The notes under the pieces were generated by a model. It was not told where the DNA came from and did no database searches. It saw nothing but the letters and a program-made list of their open reading frames with translations. From a bacterium (lineage in GTDB: Bacteria > CLD3 > SB21), in contig WBUR01000004.1 of the NCBI GenBank assembly GCA_008933615.1, positions 62,001 through 126,000 on the forward strand: DNA of 64,000 nt, written 5' to 3'. Each line of letters begins with the position of its first letter. The stretch's first letter is position 1. A program made the translations under genes and the position numbers. Positions 11,440 to 60,370 of the stretch are shown here, one piece after another.

Positions 11440-11523
11440 GCAAATATCTCTCAATCTGCGGCGATGTAATTACTATGTAATATTTATAAATAAATTTCAA
11501 GCCAATGCGTAATTTCACTTGAA

Positions 11524-11558
11524 TTTTGTTGGAAAGCTGACTAAGTTTTCCAACAAAA
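11524..11558 (+). other. Leader hairpin directly before the ribosome site of the amidase-like gene
   Basis: A perfect 12-base inverted repeat, TTTTGTTGGAAA at 11524-11535 and its complement at 11547-11558, can be extended inward by G-U, C-G and U-A pairs to leave a loop of about five bases. The AAGGAG ribosome site begins two bases after the second arm. There is no downstream T-run, so it is not a typical terminator. It could control translation or mark the end of an unseen transcript. Confidence 0.5.
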
Positions 11559-11575
11559 AAAAGGAGTACCTGTTC

Positions 11576-12133
11576 ATGCGAATCTTTCTTGAAGCCGGCG
11601 CCGGTTTTAACAAGGGCAAAGATGTATATGGGCGTGAAATCATAGGTTCCGCAGATAGTGAAGCCATTGTAAAAAGTTGCGCAGCATTTCTTTCTTTACA
11701 AAAGGAAATCCGGGAGCGGGACATTGAGGTACTGCAGACTAAAGACGCCGTAGAACGGCTCGAAGATATAAACGCAGATGATCTGCTTGTATCAGTTCAC
11801 GTCAACTTTTATCGCGACCCGTCCGGAGAGGGTTTACGTGGGTTTTATAGAAGCTCACGTAAACATAATTCTGAAAAATGCAAAGCATTGGCCATAACGG
11901 TTACAAAAGGATTACACGACCATATCGATTTGTATTATCATGGAGTTTTTAATGAGCAGCGTAATGGCTCATCTGCATTGGAGTCCGTTGTTCAATCCAG
12001 AGGGCTGGGTGCACTCGTAGAGGTCGGCTTCAGTGACGGAAATAAAGACATGATTAATAATGCGATGCTTTCCAAAAACATAGGCGATGGGATCGGTATA
12101 GGAATAATCCGACATCTGAGCGCTTTACACTAG
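11576..12133 (+). CDS. Divergent N-acetylmuramoyl-L-alanine amidase-like protein (Amidase_3), probably altered active site
   Basis: The 185-residue protein resembles the Amidase_3 fold in layout: an opening strand, a middle DLLVSVHVNF that corresponds to the SIHxN zinc-histidine motif, a segment equivalent to G-x-R-GFY, and a late LVEVGFSDG resembling the catalytic VELGFxSN. The first zinc histidine of the GHGG motif is missing; the protein reads EAGAGFNKG there. It has no signal peptide, so it would be cytoplasmic or released by lysis. It may be catalytically altered or bind peptidoglycan without cutting. The start at 11576 follows AAGGAG with a nine-base gap. The in-frame upstream extension to 11519 would be read through the leader hairpin and is unlikely. 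Confidence 0.6.
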   Translation: MRIFLEAGAGFNKGKDVYGREIIGSADSEAIVKSCAAFLSLQKEIRERDIEVLQTKDAVERLEDINADDLLVSVHVNFYRDPSGEGLRGFYRSSRKHNSEKCKALAITVTKGLHDHIDLYYHGVFNEQRNGSSALESVVQSRGLGALVEVGFSDGNKDMINNAMLSKNIGDGIGIGIIRHLSALH

Positions 12134-25245: not shown

Positions 25246-25734
25246 CTATCTAGAATCAGTTTTAATCGGGCCAATCAGCGTCAGAAGTTTTCCGTTGACC
25301 ACGACATCGCCCTCGGAATCTTTAATTGTCACGTAGACTGAAAACTCCTGTTTCTGATTATTTGAGACTATCGGCGCCTGGCACTCGCCCGTCAAGGTGC
25401 CTCGGGCTTTTTTTAAATAGTCGATAGAAATATTTTTAACAATAAAACGCGCATCTTCCGGCATGCCGCACACGAGCGCCAGATTACCGGTGTATTCGGC
25501 CAAATTGGCAAGCGCTACTGCATGAACCGAATTCAGATGATTTCTTACCTTCCTCCGGTCGCGCAGGCAGACCTTTGCATATCCTGGCCTTAATTCCTGA
25601 ACATGCGCCGACATACTTCCCGTGTACGGGATATAAAGTTTTATCATTAGATCAAATATGCGTTTACCAAATGGAATCTTGTTTAGGGCATCCCATCGAC
25701 GCTGAATATCGTTTTTATTTCTGTGTTCCGGCAT
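25246..25734 (-). CDS. DUF4442/PaaI-like hotdog-fold thioesterase
   Basis: The 162-residue protein has a hotdog-fold pattern close to the DUF4442 group of the PaaI thioesterase superfamily. The stretch NHLNSVHAVALANLAEYTG corresponds to the long central helix that carries the active-site residues, followed by the strands FIVKNISIDYLKKARG and an ending on VVVNGKLL. Such enzymes hydrolyse acyl-CoA thioesters or bind acyl chains. No signal peptide is visible. The stop is 9 bases ahead of the nitronate monooxygenase start, which indicates cotranscription. The exact substrate is unknown. Confidence 0.75.
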   Translation of the reverse strand: MPEHRNKNDIQRRWDALNKIPFGKRIFDLMIKLYIPYTGSMSAHVQELRPGYAKVCLRDRRKVRNHLNSVHAVALANLAEYTGNLALVCGMPEDARFIVKNISIDYLKKARGTLTGECQAPIVSNNQKQEFSVYVTIKDSEGDVVVNGKLLTLIGPIKTDSR

Positions 25735-25872: not shown

Positions 25873-27531
25873 TTGAGATTAACAAAATTGCTAACAATCA
25901 AGATGCTCCAACCCTCTTCTACAATTAGTCGTTTATCGAACAATTATGGTATTAAAAAAACAGCCATTGCAATGCTTGCCATATCGGTATGCATAACGAG
26001 TGCGGTTAATCCGCTCGAAGCGTACGGCCATTTGATGCAATTAGATCAGGATAGCCTACGGATTACTCAGGATAGCGTTAAAACACAAGTCGGAGTGGAC
26101 ACGAATAATATGGTCACTGGAGCCATTCAGGATATCTTACTTGAAGCACGTAGAACTATTCGCCGCGGTGTTCAACTGCCGAATAAATTCATTAATGACC
26201 ATTACGTCATCGTTTTAGATCCAGGACACGGCGGAACAAAATACGTTGATAAAGGATTTTCGGCAACGCTGGACGGCATCGAATATTTTGAAAAAGATAT
26301 TGTGTGGGAATACGCACAATTAATCGAGAAAAAATTGATCAGTGAGGGTTATCAAGGCATCAAATTAACAAAAACGGCAGCCAACGATTCCTCGCTTTCT
26401 ATTCACACTCGCGCCGCGCGCGCGCGAAAGTTCGGTACCGATGTAAATAAAAAGGTGTTATTTGTCAGCTTGCATTGGAATAATTTTGAACATCCGTCCG
26501 TTCACGGAACTGAGCTATACATTAAGGAAGACCATAATTACCGCAGCAGAAAACTTGCGGAATTTATTCGCGGAACGCTCGGTCAGATCATGCAGATGCA
26601 CGGTCAGGGTCAAAACATCACCGGCATTATCGAACGTGACTACAAAGTACTGCGGGAAATGGATACGGGCGTCCTGATTGAATTGGGTTTTGCCAGTAAT
26701 GAAGCCGACCTAAAAAAAATGCTTAAAAATAAGAATGAGATCGCCGGCGCTATCGTTCAGGGTATTGATGCATTTGCTTATTACCTTCAGTCTTTAGATG
26801 CTAAAGATCAAAAGGAAGATGACCCGCAGAAATTAGCAGAAGATAAAAAGCTGGCTTCACTGCCGAGCATTCCTTTCGGCTGGTCCTGGCGTAAACAGGA
26901 TATTTCGCAACCTATCAGAGACCTGCTTAACCAATATCACGCAATCTATGAAAATACGGAACCGGGTAAGAATATGTATCTCACATTCGATTGCGGATAC
27001 GAAAACGGATACACTCCCAAAATTCTCGATATTTTGAAATCAAACGAAGTTAAGGCCGCTTTTTTTATTACTGGAGGATATCTGAAGCAGGCTCCGGAAG
27101 TCGTGGAACGAATGATCAAGGATGGCCATATTATTGGAAATCATTCGGCTAATCACCTGAGTCAACCGCAGTTATCCGCCCGGGATGCTAAAAATGAAAT
27201 TCTAGGACTGGAACGTGATTTTTTTGATTTGTTTGAGAAAAAAATGATCTACTTCCGTCCGCCGAGCGGTGAATTCAGCCGCCGCAGCCTCGCCGTTGCT
27301 TCATCTTTAGGCTACAGAACTATATTCTGGAGCCTGGCCTATGACGATTGGGACACGAATCTTCAACGCGGAAAAGAATTTGCTTACAACAAAATAGTAA
27401 AAGGCGCCCGTGACGGCGTCATTGTGCTTATGCATGCGGTATCCAAAGATAATGCCGAGGCAATGGATTCCATAATCAAGGATCTCAGAAAACAAGGCTA
27501 CGAATTCAAAACGCTCGATGACATAAAATAA
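25873..27531 (+). CDS. Two-domain MurNAc-L-Ala amidase (CwlD-like) / PdaA-like peptidoglycan deacetylase
   Basis: The protein (552 residues from TTG 25873, or 542 from ATG 25903; neither has a good ribosome site) begins with a hydrophobic export signal. The Amidase_3 domain (about 115-310) is complete: VLDPGHGG with zinc His119, EYFEKDI with the Glu ligand, VSLHWN with the second His, and VLIELGFASNEADL with the catalytic Glu. After a charged linker the NodB-type domain (about 365-552) closely resembles PdaA: MYLTFDCGYENGYTPKIL, GNHSANH zinc histidines, FRPPSGEFS, and VIVLMHAVSKDNAEA. Known PdaA has Asn where Cys374 stands here. In spore formers CwlD removes the peptide and PdaA deacetylates MurNAc, allowing muramic delta-lactam to form. 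Both steps in one exported protein is the inference here; no spore genes are seen. Confidence 0.88.
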   Translation: MRLTKLLTIKMLQPSSTISRLSNNYGIKKTAIAMLAISVCITSAVNPLEAYGHLMQLDQDSLRITQDSVKTQVGVDTNNMVTGAIQDILLEARRTIRRGVQLPNKFINDHYVIVLDPGHGGTKYVDKGFSATLDGIEYFEKDIVWEYAQLIEKKLISEGYQGIKLTKTAANDSSLSIHTRAARARKFGTDVNKKVLFVSLHWNNFEHPSVHGTELYIKEDHNYRSRKLAEFIRGTLGQIMQMHGQGQNITGIIERDYKVLREMDTGVLIELGFASNEADLKKMLKNKNEIAGAIVQGIDAFAYYLQSLDAKDQKEDDPQKLAEDKKLASLPSIPFGWSWRKQDISQPIRDLLNQYHAIYENTEPGKNMYLTFDCGYENGYTPKILDILKSNEVKAAFFITGGYLKQAPEVVERMIKDGHIIGNHSANHLSQPQLSARDAKNEILGLERDFFDLFEKKMIYFRPPSGEFSRRSLAVASSLGYRTIFWSLAYDDWDTNLQRGKEFAYNKIVKGARDGVIVLMHAVSKDNAEAMDSIIKDLRKQGYEFKTLDDIK

Positions 27532-27702: not shown

Positions 27703-28446
27703 TTGAGCACCGATAGAGTCAGTTCAGAATCTTCCTACCTGCCTTCGCCGTTCGAAAAGAAAAAATACGTGCAGAATATGTTCGACAAGGTCGCCTCACG
27801 TTATGATTTTCTGAATCATTTCCTTAGTTTGGGCATTGATTTTTATTGGCGTCATCAGGCGCTAAAGCTGATCAATTTTAATATGAACCCGCGCCTTCTT
27901 GACCTTGCTACCGGTACCGGTGATATCGCCGTCATGGCGGTAAAACGCGGCGCCCGAAAAGTTGTTGGAGTTGATTTATCGTTCAACATGCTTAGGGTTG
28001 GGAATAAAAAAATAATAAAAAAAGATGTGGCAGATTCTATTGCCATGGTGTGCGGCGAAGGAGAAAATTTACCCCTTCCAAACGAATCAATGGATGCAGC
28101 TACGATAGCGTTTGGTATCCGCAACGTGGAAGATATTCAAAAAACATTGAATGAAATGGCGCGTGTGCTGACCAATTCCGGAGTGATAGTCGTTCTTGAG
28201 TTTTCAAAGCCTACATGGCCGGTCATTAAGCAACTGTATCAATTCTATTTCTTGTATGTATTGCCCCGCATTGGGTCGATGATCTCATCGGATAAGGAGG
28301 CTTACCATTATTTACCTCATTCCGTGTTGAATTTTCCGGAGCGCGGCGATTTCGTAAATGTAATGAAACAATCCGGATTTACAGACGTGCGTGTATTTGA
28401 TATGTCATTCGGTATCGTTACGGCTTATTGCGGAATCAAACTGTAG
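27703..28446 (+). CDS. menG: Demethylmenaquinone methyltransferase (MenG/UbiE)
   Basis: The enzyme adds the final C-methyl group in menaquinone (or ubiquinone) synthesis using S-adenosylmethionine. The 247 residues show the family signatures FDKVASRYDFLNHFLSLG, the SAM-binding LLDLATGTGDIAVMA, and IAFGIRNVEDIQKTL, and the later SMISSDKEAYHYLPHSV. The start is TTG at 27703 with AAAGGG upstream at a rather long spacing. In an FCB-type bacterium the substrate is most probably demethylmenaquinone. The 170 bases before it show no clear promoter. Confidence 0.94.
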   Translation: MSTDRVSSESSYLPSPFEKKKYVQNMFDKVASRYDFLNHFLSLGIDFYWRHQALKLINFNMNPRLLDLATGTGDIAVMAVKRGARKVVGVDLSFNMLRVGNKKIIKKDVADSIAMVCGEGENLPLPNESMDAATIAFGIRNVEDIQKTLNEMARVLTNSGVIVVLEFSKPTWPVIKQLYQFYFLYVLPRIGSMISSDKEAYHYLPHSVLNFPERGDFVNVMKQSGFTDVRVFDMSFGIVTAYCGIKL

Positions 28447-29165: not shown

Positions 29166-29309
29166 ATGACTTCTGATATTCTTAACATAGTGGCCATCTT
29201 TTTTGGGCTAATTATTTTTACATATATGATTTATATCAGCCGCCGTCAGAAGAAGAAGCTGGGCGATCGTAAGGACAAGATTAAAAACGAGTGGAGAGAC
29301 CGGTTGTAA
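29166..29309 (+). CDS. Single-pass membrane microprotein coupled to the RsbU-like phosphatase gene
   Basis: A 47-codon frame from ATG 29166 encodes a short polar start, one hydrophobic helix of about 19 residues (around IVAIFFGLIIFTYMIYI) and a very basic tail (RRQKKK onward) that would sit in the cytoplasm. The stop codon TAA overlaps the ATG of the downstream phosphatase as TAATG, and the upstream cyclodeaminase ends two bases before it. The tight packing and the ordinary topology of a small membrane protein make it a credible gene, perhaps a membrane partner of the phosphatase. No family is recognised. Confidence 0.65.
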   Translation: MTSDILNIVAIFFGLIIFTYMIYISRRQKKKLGDRKDKIKNEWRDRL

Positions 29310-31075
29310 TGGACGATTTCGAAAAAAGAGAACACGATAAACAAGCATTGATCAAAGGCGAAGTTCAGGATGACGTCGACCGGAAACTGCTTGAGCTCTC
29401 TGCATTGTTTGAAATAAGCCAGTTATTGAACTCGTCGCTCAATTTGACCTCGATCGTGGACAATATCCTCTTGTCCCCGATGGGGAGAATGATGATCAAT
29501 AAAGGGATTTTTCTTCTGCATCGCGGCGACGACCAATATGAAATATTCACACTCAAAGGCCTTGCACGCGACTTAATCGGAAAAAAAATCGCACTTTCCG
29601 AACTCCCGCTTAAACCCTTTCTCATCGAAGAATTAAAAGACAGTCAATATCCGTGGCTTTCGTTTTTTACACAGTTTGATATCAAATTATTCGTTCCGAT
29701 CATGCTGCGCAACGACGTTCTGGGACTCGTGGCATTCGGTAAAAAACTTATCGGCAAAAATTATATTGAGAGCGAAATCGAATTTCTGTCCTCTATCGCG
29801 AATATCGCCGCAACCAGTATTCAGAACGGTATTGTTTTTGAAGAACTAAGATCAGTCAATGCCCGGCTGGATAAAAAAATCCAGGAACTTAACACACTTT
29901 TTGACATCGGGAAGGAACTCAACGCAACTCTTGAATCAGGAAAGATTGCGCGCTTGTTATCCTACGGCCTGATGGGTGAAATGATGTTAAATAAATTTGT
30001 GATCTTCGTGCGCCGCCATGACACCGTGCAAACATTAGAAAAAAGATCTTTTCCCAATATGGATATTGGAGAGACTTCGTTGGAACTTTTGTTTAAGATA
30101 ACTCAACCCTATACCCTTGAAGATGCCGAGACAAATAAGTTAAACTCCGAATTGTCAGGGCATGATGTCATGGCAGTCGTGCCTATGCTTTCGCAGGATC
30201 GCACGAAAGGAATTCTGCTATTAGGACAACGAATTTCAAAAAAAACGTACACTAAAGAAGAACTGGATTTTCTTTATACACTTGGAAACCAGGCTATGAT
30301 CTCGCTTGAAAATGCCTGGCTATTCGAAGATTCATTGGAAAGAAAACGTCTGGAGGAGGAACTTCTTGTAGCGCGGAATATCCAGATCGGCCTATTGCCT
30401 GAGTTTTTCCCCGACCTGGAAACATTCGAAGTTTATGGCGTTAATATTTCCTCAAAGCAGGTCGGTGGCGATTATTTTGATGTCATCAAAGTCGATGCGG
30501 AAAATTATATTGTCGCTATCGCCGACGTGTCAGGAAAAGGCATTCCCGCCTCCTTATTGATGAGTAATGTACAGGCCAGTTTGCTTGCGCTCAGCACTGA
30601 AGTCAAGGCGTTCGATCAACTGGTAGCGAAAGTGAATAATATTATTCATGCCAATACGACGTCGGATAAATTCATCACTTTTTTCGGCGGTATTCTGAAT
30701 ATCAAGGATCGAACATTTACTTACGTTAATGCCGGCCACAATCCGCCTTATTGGGTCAAGGCAGATAGATCTTTGCAAACACTGGACAAGGGCGGCCTTC
30801 TGCTGGGGCTTATGCCGGATGTGCCTTATGAATTCGAAACGATCCGTCTTCAGCCGAATGAAAAAATCGTGATGTTCACCGACGGCGTTACAGAGGCCAT
30901 GAACGAAAAAGAGGAACAATTCGAAGAACCACGCCTGGAAAAATTACTTCAAACCCATTCCGGCCTGTCCGCAAAAGAATGCACGGAATTCATCGCGCAG
31001 GCTGTCAAAGATTTCGAAGGCAATGCTCCCCAATCCGACGATATTACCGTTGTTGTGATCAAAACGCTGAAATAG
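29309..31075 (+). CDS. RsbU/SpoIIE-type PP2C serine phosphatase with two GAF domains
   Basis: The protein of about 588 residues has two successive GAF-type sensor domains (about 25-190 and 200-345), separated by a short coiled coil, and a C-terminal PP2C phosphatase (about 370-588). In the phosphatase, GGDYFDV, VAIADVSGKGIPASLLMSN, YVNAGHNPPY, FTDGVTEAMN and NAPQSDDITVVVI carry the metal-binding aspartates. Such enzymes dephosphorylate anti-sigma antagonist proteins in partner-switching pathways. No STAS or anti-sigma gene is adjacent, so the target is unknown. The ATG at 29309 overlaps the microprotein stop; a GTG at 29291 is an alternative start. Confidence 0.88.
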   Translation: MDDFEKREHDKQALIKGEVQDDVDRKLLELSALFEISQLLNSSLNLTSIVDNILLSPMGRMMINKGIFLLHRGDDQYEIFTLKGLARDLIGKKIALSELPLKPFLIEELKDSQYPWLSFFTQFDIKLFVPIMLRNDVLGLVAFGKKLIGKNYIESEIEFLSSIANIAATSIQNGIVFEELRSVNARLDKKIQELNTLFDIGKELNATLESGKIARLLSYGLMGEMMLNKFVIFVRRHDTVQTLEKRSFPNMDIGETSLELLFKITQPYTLEDAETNKLNSELSGHDVMAVVPMLSQDRTKGILLLGQRISKKTYTKEELDFLYTLGNQAMISLENAWLFEDSLERKRLEEELLVARNIQIGLLPEFFPDLETFEVYGVNISSKQVGGDYFDVIKVDAENYIVAIADVSGKGIPASLLMSNVQASLLALSTEVKAFDQLVAKVNNIIHANTTSDKFITFFGGILNIKDRTFTYVNAGHNPPYWVKADRSLQTLDKGGLLLGLMPDVPYEFETIRLQPNEKIVMFTDGVTEAMNEKEEQFEEPRLEKLLQTHSGLSAKECTEFIAQAVKDFEGNAPQSDDITVVVIKTLK

Positions 31076-31815: not shown

Positions 31816-33216
31816 ATGAACTTCAAACCTGAACCAAAGCCCTTTCTCTACCGATTCATCCGTCTTATCGGTAAGATTGTGATGGCCATTTTTTTCAGGA
31901 AAATTGAAATACGGCACGCCGAAAATATCCCCAATTTAGGGCCTATAGTGTTTGTTGCCAATCATCCAAATTCGATCATGGATGCCTTCGTTATCGGGGT
32001 AGCAATCAAGCGTAAAGTTAATTACATAGGCCACTCAGGACTGTTTAAACATCCGCTGGCGAATAGATTTCTCCGAAGCTGCGGCGTTATTCCCGTCGTT
32101 CGAAAAGGCGAGCATTCGGACAAACTTCAGGACAATACGGCTTCCTTCGATGCGTGTTACCAGGCGCTCGAAGAAGGACAAACTATCGGCATATTTCCGG
32201 AAGGCACGAGCGACATGCTCCGGCAGGTTAAGAAGGTCAAAACCGGCGCCGCGCGCATTATCCTGGAAACGGAAGCGCGAAACAATTATCAATTGGGCGT
32301 CAAAGTTATTCCGATCGGATTACATTTTTTTTCGCGAAGCCGGTTTCGAAGCCGTGTGCTGGTAAATATCGGTAAACCAATTGATCTTAGTTCATACAGC
32401 AATCTCAATCTGAATAATCCTACGGAGGCCGTTCAGCAGCTTACTAACGAAATTCAAAACCAACTTGAGCAGATCACGGTTAATCTGCAGCATATTGAAC
32501 TGGACGATCTCGTTCGTGATGTAGAACTCATATTCAAAGAGGAGCTTATTGGCGATGCCTCTCTCATTCCTCCGCATTTATCGGATAACGTAGAAGAATT
32601 TATTATAACTCAGCGTATAGCCGAATGCGTAGATTATTACTACAAACGTGAGCCCGGCCGTGTTCAGGCCATGCAGGACCGCATTTCAGCCTATAAACGA
32701 AAACTCATGAGGTTAAATCTGCGCGATGCGATGCTTCAGGAAAAAACCGTTTTCTCCAAGATTCTCGCAGGAAGCGCCAGGAAGTTTATATTAGCGCTGC
32801 TGGGCTTACCGATAGCACTATATGGAATAGTTAACAATTTTGTTCCTCACGGTATTGCCATTTACGCGGCAAAAAAATTTCTGCATGAGCGCACGAAGAT
32901 TCTGAGCGCGTTGTTATTTGCCGGTGGGCCTGCATTCTTATTCTTTTATACGATCCAGACGTTTACCGTGTTTTATTTTCTTGGAACCTCTTGGGCTGTG
33001 GCGTATTTTACAAGCCTTCCGACCTCCGGATTATTTGCCCTGGCTTATACGCAGGATCTCAGGGAAGAACAGGAACTTATAAGCTTTTCATTTGTCTTAT
33101 TTACTAATCGCCGGTTGATCAACAAAATGCGACGTGAACGCCGCATTTTGATTAATGAGATGAATACGGTGAAAACCGAATACGTTGCAATCATACAAGG
33201 CCAAAAAAAGCCATGA
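31816..33216 (+). CDS. PlsC-like glycerolipid acyltransferase with extra C-terminal membrane region
   Basis: The 466-residue protein carries the 1-acyl-glycerol-3-phosphate acyltransferase domain at about 20-230, with the catalytic NHPNSIMD motif and the substrate-binding FPEGTS motif; these transfer acyl chains to lysophosphatidic acid or similar. Beyond the domain is a helical region and a C-terminal membrane segment set around residues 320-420, longer than the standard enzyme of about 250 residues. It overlaps the polysaccharide deacetylase start by 4 bases (ATGA), so they are translationally coupled. It may acylate glycerophospholipids or another envelope lipid. Confidence 0.88.
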   Translation: MNFKPEPKPFLYRFIRLIGKIVMAIFFRKIEIRHAENIPNLGPIVFVANHPNSIMDAFVIGVAIKRKVNYIGHSGLFKHPLANRFLRSCGVIPVVRKGEHSDKLQDNTASFDACYQALEEGQTIGIFPEGTSDMLRQVKKVKTGAARIILETEARNNYQLGVKVIPIGLHFFSRSRFRSRVLVNIGKPIDLSSYSNLNLNNPTEAVQQLTNEIQNQLEQITVNLQHIELDDLVRDVELIFKEELIGDASLIPPHLSDNVEEFIITQRIAECVDYYYKREPGRVQAMQDRISAYKRKLMRLNLRDAMLQEKTVFSKILAGSARKFILALLGLPIALYGIVNNFVPHGIAIYAAKKFLHERTKILSALLFAGGPAFLFFYTIQTFTVFYFLGTSWAVAYFTSLPTSGLFALAYTQDLREEQELISFSFVLFTNRRLINKMRRERRILINEMNTVKTEYVAIIQGQKKP

Positions 33217-33977
33217 GCATCCGTTCGCGATTCCATAATTTTTTTGATGGCGGACTTATTCAATCTACGCTAAGCGACATGAGTTATAAAGCCTCTATTG
33301 AACGATTGGGACGTTTGCTCATCAAGCGTGTTGTGTGGAGAAATCACACGGACGAAAAAAGAATCGCGCTGACTTTTGATGACGGGCCGCACCCTCTTTA
33401 CACAACGCAAATATTAGCGATTCTAAGAGAATATTCTGTTCAAGCCACTTTTTTTCTTATCGGTAAGCATCTGTCTAATCACCCCAACTTAGCTCAGTCT
33501 ATAGTTGATTCCGGTCATGAAATAGCGAACCACACTTATTCACACCAACTTTTGGTGCGGTTATCTAACGATGAAATTAAGCGTGAAATTCAAAGTACGC
33601 ATGAGCTACTTTCCGGGCTTAATGGACAGAATCCCCGATTTCTTAGGCCGCCGATGGGCCTCTTTTCCAAACGGGTATTGGATGTAATAGAAGAATCCGG
33701 GTATCGAACTGTTGTCGGTGACGTTTATCCGCGGGATCCGCATCGCCCGGGTAAAGACAAAATCGTAAAAAGAATTCTTTCGCGCACTCAGGCCGGATCT
33801 ATTATCATATTACATGACGGAGGCAATACGGAAGTAGTCGACCGTAGTCAAACCGTCGACGCGCTTAAAGAAATTATACCCACGCTGAAACAAAGAGGAT
33901 TTGAATTCGTAACGCTGTCCGAAATGTTTAAAATATCTCTAGAATCCAACAATACGAAGAATAATAAACTGGGCTAA
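33213..33977 (+). CDS. Polysaccharide deacetylase (NodB domain)
   Basis: The 254-residue protein has the complete NodB motifs: LTFDDGPHP with both metal-binding aspartates (unlike the DC pair of the PdaA-like protein at 26989), HTYSH with two zinc histidines, RPPMGLFS, and the C-terminal IIILHDGG. These enzymes remove N-acetyl groups from peptidoglycan, chitin-like or other carbohydrate polymers. There is no clear N-terminal signal peptide, only a short charged segment, so it may be cytoplasmic or anchored in complex. Its start overlaps the acyltransferase stop, and the M1 peptidase gene follows after 12 bases. Confidence 0.9.
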   Translation: MSIRSRFHNFFDGGLIQSTLSDMSYKASIERLGRLLIKRVVWRNHTDEKRIALTFDDGPHPLYTTQILAILREYSVQATFFLIGKHLSNHPNLAQSIVDSGHEIANHTYSHQLLVRLSNDEIKREIQSTHELLSGLNGQNPRFLRPPMGLFSKRVLDVIEESGYRTVVGDVYPRDPHRPGKDKIVKRILSRTQAGSIIILHDGGNTEVVDRSQTVDALKEIIPTLKQRGFEFVTLSEMFKISLESNNTKNNKLG

Positions 33978-49638: not shown

Positions 49639-51024
49639 CTATTTTTTGGTTGATAAGGCGGGCTGCATGATCGGGAAAAATAATTTGAACGAAGAACCCT
49701 TCCCTACTTCACTCTCAACCGTTATCTTGCCGTTGTGTTTTTTAATGATTTCTTGTGTGATAGGTAAACCCAAGCCGGTGCCTTCATGCGCGTCTTTTGT
49801 TGTAAAACCGGTAACAAAAATCTTGTCAAGATTTTCTTTGGAAATGCCCATCCCATTGTCCGCAATGTCTACAACCACGTCGTCGCCTTCAATGTAAGTG
49901 TTGATTTGAACTTTAACGTCGTTCGATCGCGATTGCGCGGCGTTGTTGATGATATTGATCATCACCTGGGAAATAGGACCGGGAAGGCCCATAACATTGG
50001 GAATTGTGCCGAATTTTTTGACAAATTCAACATTGTGCTTGAATTTTGAATGTAACAAAGACAATGCGCGTTCAATCTGAGCATGCAAATCCGTCTTAAC
50101 AAACTCGGCATCATCCAACCTTGAAAATCCGCGCAAGTCTTCAATGATATCCGTTACCAGGTCACAGGAATGATTAATAATAGTCACGGCGGACTCGAAT
50201 TCCTGCATTAACTCTTCAACATCGGATCTTTCCGAAAAGGACTTTCTTAGATCTTCCGCTGAAAGCTTCCCGCTAACCACTTCCTGAACTTCAGTCAGAA
50301 TCTCTTTGACGTCATTCCACTCAAATGTCAGTAGTTTCGTAGAATTGTTAATGTTATTGATCGGGTTCCTAATCTCATGCGCAATGCTCCCCATAAGCTG
50401 CCCCAGCATGGACATTTTTTCGGAACGGATCAGATGTTCCTGAGCATCCTTCAGAGATTGATAAGTCTCCTTCAGCTCCGCGTGCGCTTTTTCAAGCTCT
50501 TTGCTTTTGAAATAGAAATCTACGCCACGTTTAATGCTGATTCGAAGGTCATCAGGCTCGAACGGTTTAGTAATGTATTGGAAAACGCGTCCTGCGTTGA
50601 TTGATTCAATCAGATCTTTTACGTCCGTATATCCGGTGAGAATGATTCGGATACAATCGGGTTTGATGCTGATGGAACGGTTAAGAAATTCCGTTCCGGA
50701 CATTACAGGCATGCGTTGGTCGGATACGATAAGCGAAATATTCTGATTCGCTTCCAGGATTTCAAGCGCGTCTTTCCCGCTGGATGCGGCATATACTATG
50801 TATTCATCGGCAAGAATTCGGCTAAGGACTTTAAGTACATTCTCTTCATCATCCACAATAAGTATTTCAACTTTATCGCTTTGCGGCAATACAGTCTCCT
50901 CCGTTACCGATTCATTGTCAGTCTGTGGAAGTCTTTTTAGTGACATGCTGAGATTAGGATAGTGTTGACCTTGATATGCGTATCGTATGAGAGTATACGG
51001 AATACGCCAATTTAAATCAAGCAT
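49639..51024 (-). CDS. Hybrid response-regulator/histidine kinase
   Basis: The order is REC receiver (about residues 50-170), coiled coil, HisKA dimerisation, HATPase. The receiver has VEILIVDDEENV, the phosphoacceptor Asp in LIVSDQRMP and ILTGYTDVKD. The kinase has the phosphorylated histidine in IAHEIRNPINN and ATP-binding motifs IINNAAQS, VVDIADNGMGI and GTGLGLPITQEI. There is no membrane segment, so it is a cytoplasmic receiver-kinase, likely fed by another kinase. Start choice: ATG at 51024 overlaps the upstream acyltransferase stop (ATGCTTGA) with GGAAAG before it; ATG at 50946 is an alternative. No cognate output protein is adjacent. Confidence 0.88.
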   Translation of the reverse strand: MLDLNWRIPYTLIRYAYQGQHYPNLSMSLKRLPQTDNESVTEETVLPQSDKVEILIVDDEENVLKVLSRILADEYIVYAASSGKDALEILEANQNISLIVSDQRMPVMSGTEFLNRSISIKPDCIRIILTGYTDVKDLIESINAGRVFQYITKPFEPDDLRISIKRGVDFYFKSKELEKAHAELKETYQSLKDAQEHLIRSEKMSMLGQLMGSIAHEIRNPINNINNSTKLLTFEWNDVKEILTEVQEVVSGKLSAEDLRKSFSERSDVEELMQEFESAVTIINHSCDLVTDIIEDLRGFSRLDDAEFVKTDLHAQIERALSLLHSKFKHNVEFVKKFGTIPNVMGLPGPISQVMINIINNAAQSRSNDVKVQINTYIEGDDVVVDIADNGMGISKENLDKIFVTGFTTKDAHEGTGLGLPITQEIIKKHNGKITVESEVGKGSSFKLFFPIMQPALSTKK

Positions 51025-51880
51025 GAACTTTCCAGCGCCTATGATGCCAAAGCCATTGTTCAGGATGCGCCGTAACGATTTTTTCAATTTCTGTCGTATA
51101 GGATTGAACTTGCCCGTCCATGGAAAGCGACGTATTTAGCTCGAACGCCTTGACCTCAAAACGGTGAAAATATTTGTTTTGCCTGACTGCAAAACAAACA
51201 AAAACAGGAACCTTAAATTTATTCGCAAGATATACGGGGCCTTCCGTAGCGAAGCACGGCTGTCCCAAAAAATTAACCGGAACAGTGTTGTCGCCAAAAT
51301 CCTGATCGGAAAGCAGGGCTATACAATATTTATCCTCAATAAGCCGTCTGAGTTTCATAATTTCATTTTCGTAAACTACGACCATGCCTGCTTTTTCTCT
51401 TTGGCGATTGATCAGCCGGTCGATTTTTTCATTTTGTTGATGTTTAACTATTACGGCTATTGGAATTCTTTTTTCAAATAAAATCTTTCCCATCAATTCC
51501 CAATTTCCGACATGCGCGGAAACGAAAATAGCGCCTGACAATATCCGATCGTAAAACCGGTCCGGAAGTATAAGTTCATAATCTCGATCCTGTTTTAGGT
51601 CTATCCGGTCCAATGCCAGAAGCTCAAAGAAAGTTCGCCCCAAATGTTTGTAGCTGTCTGAAACGAGTTGTGATGCTTTGTCTAATGTGATAGGCAGGCT
51701 GCTTCGAAGAATGTTTTCAACCGCTACTTTTTTACGAATTCCAATGTGTTCAAAAAAAAGTCCGGCTAAAGCTCCGGCGTCCGAAATTCGTCTGTAGGAA
51801 AGCAGACCCAGCATTAACTGCACAATCCATACAAACGAATATTCAAATGCCGAATTAATTTTGTTAAGAATCACAGACAC
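51017..51880 (-). CDS. LpxL/HtrB-family lysophospholipid/lipid A acyltransferase
   Basis: The 287-residue protein belongs to the LpxL/HtrB acyltransferases that add the late acyl chains to Kdo2-lipid A. It has one N-terminal membrane segment, the catalytic SAHVGNWEL (H-x4-E) motif, the second block LLSDQDFGDN, a substrate region FATEGPVYLANKFKV, and the ending HPEQWLWHHRRWK, all typical of the family. Its presence argues for lipopolysaccharide, that is a diderm envelope. It overlaps the hybrid kinase gene by 8 bases and lies 2 bases after rnhA. Confidence 0.9.
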   Translation of the reverse strand: MSVILNKINSAFEYSFVWIVQLMLGLLSYRRISDAGALAGLFFEHIGIRKKVAVENILRSSLPITLDKASQLVSDSYKHLGRTFFELLALDRIDLKQDRDYELILPDRFYDRILSGAIFVSAHVGNWELMGKILFEKRIPIAVIVKHQQNEKIDRLINRQREKAGMVVVYENEIMKLRRLIEDKYCIALLSDQDFGDNTVPVNFLGQPCFATEGPVYLANKFKVPVFVCFAVRQNKYFHRFEVKAFELNTSLSMDGQVQSYTTEIEKIVTAHPEQWLWHHRRWKVHA

Positions 51881-59122: not shown

Positions 59123-60313
59123 TCAAAAATAAATAATCGCTGAACTTGAAAAAATTATATATGAAAATTCTTGTTTGTCATCGGCGTTCAGATCTTTAGC
59201 CTCAAAAGCTCTTCGGGTAACAGCCAGATCAATTGCGAAACTTTTAAAAATAAGGCCTGATCCTACAGATATCGCCGTGCCGGTAACCTGGCTGCCTACA
59301 TCTCCGTTGCTTTTGATGTCTGCAAATAATGTCGGAACGGTCTTAAATCCTGCTCTCACGGGAATTACCCAGTTATCGGTTATAACCAAATATTCTGCCC
59401 CGACCCTGATCGGATTTAAATCTTTCTTACTTGAACTCAGATTAAATTCTCCTCCAGGATCACTTGGGTCATCTATTTGTTTTACTTTGCTTTTGCCAAA
59501 GGCTCTCAATTCATAATCAGCAGCCAGAGTCAAATTGTCACCAACGCGATAGGATACTCCAAAGCCCAGCATCATTGGAAACTCCCATGCCCATTTGTAT
59601 TTCGTAGTTTCACCTCCGTATTTCCACTTGTCAGTCATTTCAAATGGAGCGCGATAAGATACGCCTATCCGCATGGGCAGTTTGGCGCCTGTCTGTTCCA
59701 GATCGGCCAAAACACCTACTTGATAATTAAATCCGGAGAAATCGTCCTTGTATGAAAAGGAGTTAAGAGGATCAACATAATCATCGTATTTGTATTCGGA
59801 ACTTCCGGTCCACAAATTGAAGGAGGCGCCAACTGATAAAGCGGGCATGACCTGAAATGCAAGGCCCGGCGATATGGTATTGATTCCACCGGTTTGGTCT
59901 TCTTTGAAAACATCTTTGTCCTTCGTGTACAGAAAGTTGTCGATCTGATTCTGGTATGCAATGGCGACAGTAAATTTTTTATCCATAAGCTTCATTGGAT
60001 ATGCGATGCTGCCGAAGTTAAATGCCGGATGATTTGCAGAACTGGTGAGTTTATTACCGGGAGCTGTATACTTATAAGTATCAAATGATTGTCTAAAAAC
60101 AAATGACGCTTCCGGCCTTTCTAATTGAGTTAGTCCCGCCGGATTCCACGAAAGCGCGGTTGCATCATCTGCCAGGCCGATAAATGCGCCGCCCATGCCC
60201 TCTGCGCGTGCACCGGACCCGATGATATCCATAAATTTCAATTGGCCCCAAGCGCTGTTGGTGAGCGACATTAAGACAATCAAAATTGCTGCATAGAAAC
60301 CTTTCTTCATCAT
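59123..60313 (-). CDS. Outer-membrane protein of the UPF0164/PorV-like (FadL-type barrel) group
   Basis: The 396-residue protein has a signal peptide (about residues 4-22) and then the motif GARAEGMGGAFIGLADDATALSWNPAGLTQL, given here in part as MGGAFIGLADDATALSWNPAG, which marks UPF0164, PorV and related FadL-type barrels. The remaining 340 residues are alternating strands with Y, F and G that fit a 14-strand barrel. Start ATG at 60313 has GGAGG five bases before. It lies 57 bases after the CsgG-like gene. Homologues transport hydrophobic compounds or help type IX or other secretion, but the role here is open. Confidence 0.82.
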   Translation of the reverse strand: MMKKGFYAAILIVLMSLTNSAWGQLKFMDIIGSGARAEGMGGAFIGLADDATALSWNPAGLTQLERPEASFVFRQSFDTYKYTAPGNKLTSSANHPAFNFGSIAYPMKLMDKKFTVAIAYQNQIDNFLYTKDKDVFKEDQTGGINTISPGLAFQVMPALSVGASFNLWTGSSEYKYDDYVDPLNSFSYKDDFSGFNYQVGVLADLEQTGAKLPMRIGVSYRAPFEMTDKWKYGGETTKYKWAWEFPMMLGFGVSYRVGDNLTLAADYELRAFGKSKVKQIDDPSDPGGEFNLSSSKKDLNPIRVGAEYLVITDNWVIPVRAGFKTVPTLFADIKSNGDVGSQVTGTAISVGSGLIFKSFAIDLAVTRRAFEAKDLNADDKQEFSYIIFSSSAIIYF

Positions 60314-60370
60314 AGGCACCTCCTCGTATTATTTAATTGGACATTTAAGTTAATAAGATAAAACTCTCGA

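Follow-up and report, generated by a model that had tools for sequence, protein, structure and literature searches.

Whether a single exported protein could carry out, outside of sporulation, the reactions that yield muramic delta-lactam is the question raised by a gene in the 64,000-nucleotide stretch of bacterial DNA analyzed here (the window), which encodes an amidase domain followed by a NodB-type deacetylase domain (Table 1). CwlD and PdaA suffice for delta-lactam formation, and PdaA is inactive until the peptide has been removed from MurNAc (PMC10116595). A limited literature search that included Gram-negative bacteria returned no report of delta-lactam outside spores, although this does not prove its absence. 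The evidence discussed below makes it fairly probable that the fusion is an exported periplasmic peptidoglycan enzyme that acts in two steps and probably forms the lactam as well.

Table 1. Features of the fusion gene, its neighborhood and other loci of the window (positions refer to the window).
Feature	Position	Strand	Remarks
Fused N-acetylmuramoyl-L-alanine amidase / PdaA-clade MurNAc deacetylase	25873..27531	+	552 aa from TTG; alternative ATG at 25903
Predicted N-terminal export signal	25903..26022	+	Read by eye: basic n-region, hydrophobic AIAMLAISVCITSAV core, then LEA
Amidase_3 domain	26209..26769	+	Residues 113-299; has neither the long AmiC-type insertion nor that of CwlD
Amidase residues	H119 26227-26229; E140 26290-26292; H201 26473-26475; E270 26680-26682	+	
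PdaA-clade CE4/NodB domain	26893..27525	+	Residues 341-551; assigned by profile scores and tree
CE4 residues	D373 (base) 26989-26991; C374 26992-26994; H424 27142-27144; H428 27154-27156; R462 27256-27258; H521 27433-27435	+	
DUF4442 gene	25246..25734	-	Divergent, upstream of the fusion; conserved neighbor in three genera
UbiE/MenG-type methyltransferase	27703..28446	+	Next downstream of the fusion; also in a second genus
GAF-SpoIIE/PP2C (RsbU-type) phosphatase	29291..31075	+	In three genera, follows the fusion at a distance of 2-3 genes
Separate CE4 deacetylase	33213-33977	+	5.7 kb downstream of the fusion
Second divergent Amidase_3-like protein	11519-12133	+	No evident signal peptide
LpxL-type lipid A acyltransferase	51017-51880	-	
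FadL-type outer-membrane protein	59123-60319	-	

The fusion ORF is uninterrupted and starts with TTG, the ATG at residue 11 being an equally plausible start, and the opposite strand of the same interval contains many stops. Pfam assigns residues 113-299 to Amidase_3 (E=2.6e-30; PF01520, 106 bits vs. a gathering threshold of 27) and residues 362-483 to Polysacc_deac_1 (E=1.6e-32), both well above the curated cut-offs. Within the amidase domain, H119 lies in DPGHGG, H201 in SLHWN and E270 in LIELGF. The N-terminal segment evolves fast, with a hydrophobic stretch retained among relatives, and judged by eye it reads as a signal peptide. The sequence-only reading had described one exported chain with a complete Amidase_3 site and a NodB domain, a description borne out by the open reading frame, the Pfam matches and the presence of the His/Glu/His/Glu set; likewise, the PdaA motifs that it had named, FDCGYENGYTPKIL, HSANH and VSKDNAEA, are all found in the protein. 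An AlphaFold2 model of the full-length fusion, based on a 5-row alignment, reached a mean pLDDT of 43.7, which is too low for structural claims.

The fusion is a stable trait of its lineage, a family of uncultured bacteria. Nine genomes of the phylum were sampled, seven from the host family and two from a sister family; the gene occurs in 7/7 of the former, which span four genera, with alignment identities of 50-91%, and is absent from 2/2 of the latter. In all seven cases both domains lie within one open frame of 533-567 codons, and H119, E140, H201 and E270, together with D373, H424, H428, R462 and H521, are invariant. Between congeneric genomes, dN/dS is 0.02-0.06 for the amidase and 0.04-0.08 for the NodB half, with 0.34-0.55 for the N-terminal part, and both domains are thus under strong purifying selection. 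Given its occurrence in seven genomes of four genera and the low dN/dS of both domains, the two-domain chain is not a product of chance or an assembly accident. In the host genome (3.77 Mb, 97 contigs) the gene is present as a single copy, and the remaining matches are to CE4 proteins only. In wider surveys, the seven were the only fusions among 290 genomes drawn from 261 genera across the domain, two small genomes of another family having a lone PdaA-clade protein, and of 399 genomes of one Bacillota phylum, 51 matched the PdaA half, always in frames of 261-362 codons and never as a fusion. Both surveys are samples rather than a census. In addition, an exact-peptide scan of 84,980 species, which is sensitive to close relatives only, recovered two fusions, both from the same genus, along with two PdaA-clade proteins that stand alone. 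The search for two-domain proteins that had been proposed for all genomes was run on samples of 290 and 399; it yielded only the seven fusions, whose genomic context was compared (see below).

Profile scores and phylogeny show that the NodB half truly belongs to the PdaA clade. Among NCBIfam models, the fusion scores 271 bits with TIGR02884 (spore_pdaA), 159 with PdaB, 110 with SwsB/YlxY (TIGR02873, cut-off 391.5) and 101 with PgdA. The equivalog cut-off of TIGR02884 lies at 298 bits, above the scores of all seven fusions (261-289), and for this reason the domain is named PdaA-clade rather than PdaA proper. In five comparison genomes, each PdaA scores 298-351 with this model and all other CE4 proteins ≤157; a clostridial PdaA-clade protein (L008) likewise falls under the cut-off at 242 bits, PdaA-clade proteins overall covering 242-351. 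Against solved structures, the best match of the NodB half is B. subtilis PdaA (212 bits), followed by 2j13 (191), which clusters with PdaA in the CE4 tree, and the next entry reaches only 111. In line with these scores, the CE4 tree (51 rows) nests the fusions among Bacillota PdaAs, beside L008, with a support of 89/100 for the PdaA clade, and topologies that place the fusion outside this clade are rejected (p-AU 0.028). Accordingly, the earlier claim that this half follows PdaA holds, and the test attached to it, a possible placement among general deacetylases, returned a grouping inside the PdaA clade. Because the domain nests among Bacillota PdaAs, an older transfer is possible, whereas a recent acquisition of the fusion was considered and is unsupported, since GC stays level along the locus and every sampled genome of the family has the gene.

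The catalytic residues agree with this placement. BsPdaA D73, H124, H128, R166 and H222 align with D373, H424, H428, R462 and H521 of the fusion, which thus has the base, metal ligands, motif-3 Arg and acid His of PdaA (B. subtilis O34928; PDB 1w1a/1w17/1ny1; TIGR02884) and also shares its GYENG, A-x-DW and H-x-[VIT]-S signatures. Unlike PdaA, it is linked to an amidase, resides in a diderm host that lacks Spo0A and SleB/CwlJ, and carries Cys at the Asn74 site. The last of these had been singled out as a difference from PdaA, but the site varies between Asn, Glu and Cys across the PdaA clade, L008 also having Cys, and Cys374 was rejected as a functional departure. In BsPdaA, the D73N substitution abolishes deacetylation but leaves cyclisation intact, and H222 is required for cyclisation (PMC10116595, PMC12444981). 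SwsB, a muramic delta-lactam cyclase with related CE4 chemistry on muramic acid, gains deacetylase activity once a Thr/Asp/Arg trio is restored (PMC12444981), which corresponds to T371/D373/R462 of the fusion. Whereas SwsB is a pure cyclase in which Asn replaces the base, this Asp-to-Asn change is absent here and the trio is kept, so the fusion, unlike SwsB, should also deacetylate. As all residues published for both reactions are retained, the NodB half is expected to deacetylate and to cyclise. As a separate observation, PdaA-clade proteins from genomes of 1.2-1.4 Mb in another family (L070, L071) have Glu at the N74 site, and L070 exceeds the TIGR02884 cut-off.

For the amidase half, a comparably close kinship with its spore counterpart is not supported. 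The label "CwlD-like" given by the sequence-only reading is not sustained at the level of family: with the CwlD model TIGR02883 the fusion scores 69.2 bits vs. a cut-off of 221.55, CwlD-clade members of the tree that were scanned scoring 194-272; the alignment shows no counterpart of the short CwlD stretch that precedes the R-x-x-x-[AI] motif; and the best Amidase_3 tree places this half outside the CwlD clade (98/89), although a forced grouping with CwlD is not firmly rejected (p-AU 0.069). It is 22-33% identical to each Amidase_3 group compared. Its tree partner (93/97) is a divergent clostridial amidase (L112; 168 bits with the CwlD model), encoded in a genome that also holds the PdaA best matching the NodB half, which might hint at a shared donor for both halves, although both are long branches. 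By these comparisons the amidase half is a divergent, generic Amidase_3 that would supply the amidase step, apparently without being orthologous to CwlD, so that it need not follow the every-other-residue pattern known from CwlD. The two still have in common the Amidase_3 family and the zinc site, and the amidase half would perform the same step as CwlD. Neither has the AmiC-type long insertion, which the AmiC-like amidase of the host (L050) contains at the position of the autoinhibitory helix in AmiA/B/C.

A complete and generic amidase half could also belong to an ordinary division amidase whose accessory NodB domain merely aids binding to glycan strands, yet the host genome encodes a separate AmiC-like amidase and other Amidase_3 proteins, and the CE4 active site is intact and under strong purifying selection, so that this explanation appears very unlikely. 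As regards these other proteins, L050, with its long internal insertion, and a SpoIID-domain protein (L149) are encoded within ~5 kb of each other (G000:C6 29687-34804). The second Amidase_3-like protein of the window has EAGAGF in place of DPGHGG and lacks the first zinc His while keeping the second His and the final Glu; it is conserved in the family (L063, L066-L069), with LISVGF at the final Glu site in L067, and is possibly a pseudo-amidase.

Both general claims made about the host are supported. The LpxL-type acyltransferase and the FadL-type outer-membrane protein encoded within the window mark it as a diderm, and no spore genes were visible in the two families searched, Spo0A (PF08769) and SleB/CwlJ (PF07486) each being found in 0/9 phylum genomes, with positive B. 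subtilis controls. The absence of these two families strongly suggests a non-sporulating host. A SpoIID-domain protein is present in 9/9 phylum genomes and, as these include the two sister-family genomes without the fusion, it is not specifically tied to the latter. Since no SleB/CwlJ hydrolase is found in the phylum, there is no known reader of a lactam mark.

In the proposed mechanism, the N-terminal zinc amidase would cut the stem peptide off MurNAc, after which the PdaA-type domain would deacetylate the bared MurNAc, with D373 as the base and the metal held by H424/H428, and the freed amine would probably close on the lactyl carboxylate, with H521 as the acid, to give muramic delta-lactam. 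Because PdaA requires a peptide-free substrate, linkage to an amidase would couple the steps, and because it acts only after peptide removal, the order amidase, deacetylase, cyclase would be built into the chain. Both hydrolytic activities and their coupling are likely, and lactam closure has slightly better than even prospects. In this regard, C. difficile PdaA1 is a fast deacetylase but a slow cyclase (PMC12444981), and hence a PdaA may leave mostly free muramic acid. The fusion could thus deacetylate denuded strands with hardly any cyclisation, the free muramic acid altering SPOR binding or shielding strands from lytic transglycosylases or lysozyme. Such an activity would be SddA-like in function, with SddA (E. 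coli YibQ) as the precedent for deacetylation of septal amidase products in a diderm (PMC12440217), and the lack of a SleB/CwlJ reader in the phylum would be in agreement with it. However, although SddA and, by prediction, the fusion both perform periplasmic deacetylation of amidase products in a diderm, SddA is specific for GlcNAc rather than MurNAc, is separate from the amidases and forms no lactam, whereas the fusion is amidase-linked and retains the PdaA-clade signature and H521, whose BsPdaA counterpart is needed for cyclisation. Deacetylation with hardly any cyclisation is therefore a minority possibility, though a serious one.

For the product of the favored two-step, lactam-forming reading, a use in marking or protecting denuded glycan strands, e.g., those of the septum or of a resting-cell wall, may be put forward as a rather doubtful proposal. 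A septal role is plausible because SddA shows that diderms modify the denuded septal strands made by amidases, and a resting-wall role is equally unproven. More broadly, it is conceivable, if somewhat short of an even prospect, that a diderm lineage without endospores uses one enzyme to make wall delta-lactam and thereby marks denuded strands for hydrolases, SPOR proteins or a resting-cell program, with a reader other than SleB/CwlJ. If this is true, muramic delta-lactam, or its deacetylated precursor, has a role outside spores, which a conserved single chain would make approachable via one gene. As an enzyme in which the steps would be naturally coupled, the fusion could also help in studying the direct formation of an amide from carboxylate and amine by PdaA.

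The genomic context bears on a different proposal, that of a secreted weapon or scavenging enzyme directed at foreign peptidoglycan instead of the cell's own wall. The export signal and the two peptidoglycan-active domains would fit such an enzyme; nevertheless, the gene is single copy in a conserved chromosomal context, with housekeeping neighbors (DUF4442, UbiE and FTCD_C) in several genera, no immunity-like neighbor, even GC and low dN/dS, all of which makes this proposal improbable. Between the fusion and the phosphatase lie UbiE and FTCD_C in two genera and one other gene in the third. The phosphatase might point to control by stress or development, a hint of little weight since the neighbors are otherwise housekeeping. 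Promoter or operon sites near the fusion were not clearly above shuffled sequence, and the gap downstream of it shows no unusual fold. Further downstream, the separate CE4 deacetylase, whose gene adjoins an acyltransferase-like gene, has an intact DD motif (TFDDG) and PdaB as its best model, at a score under the cut-off of that model. A CE4-like family of the lineage (L028, L029, L031, L032 and L033) has TFDACS where TFDDG would be expected.
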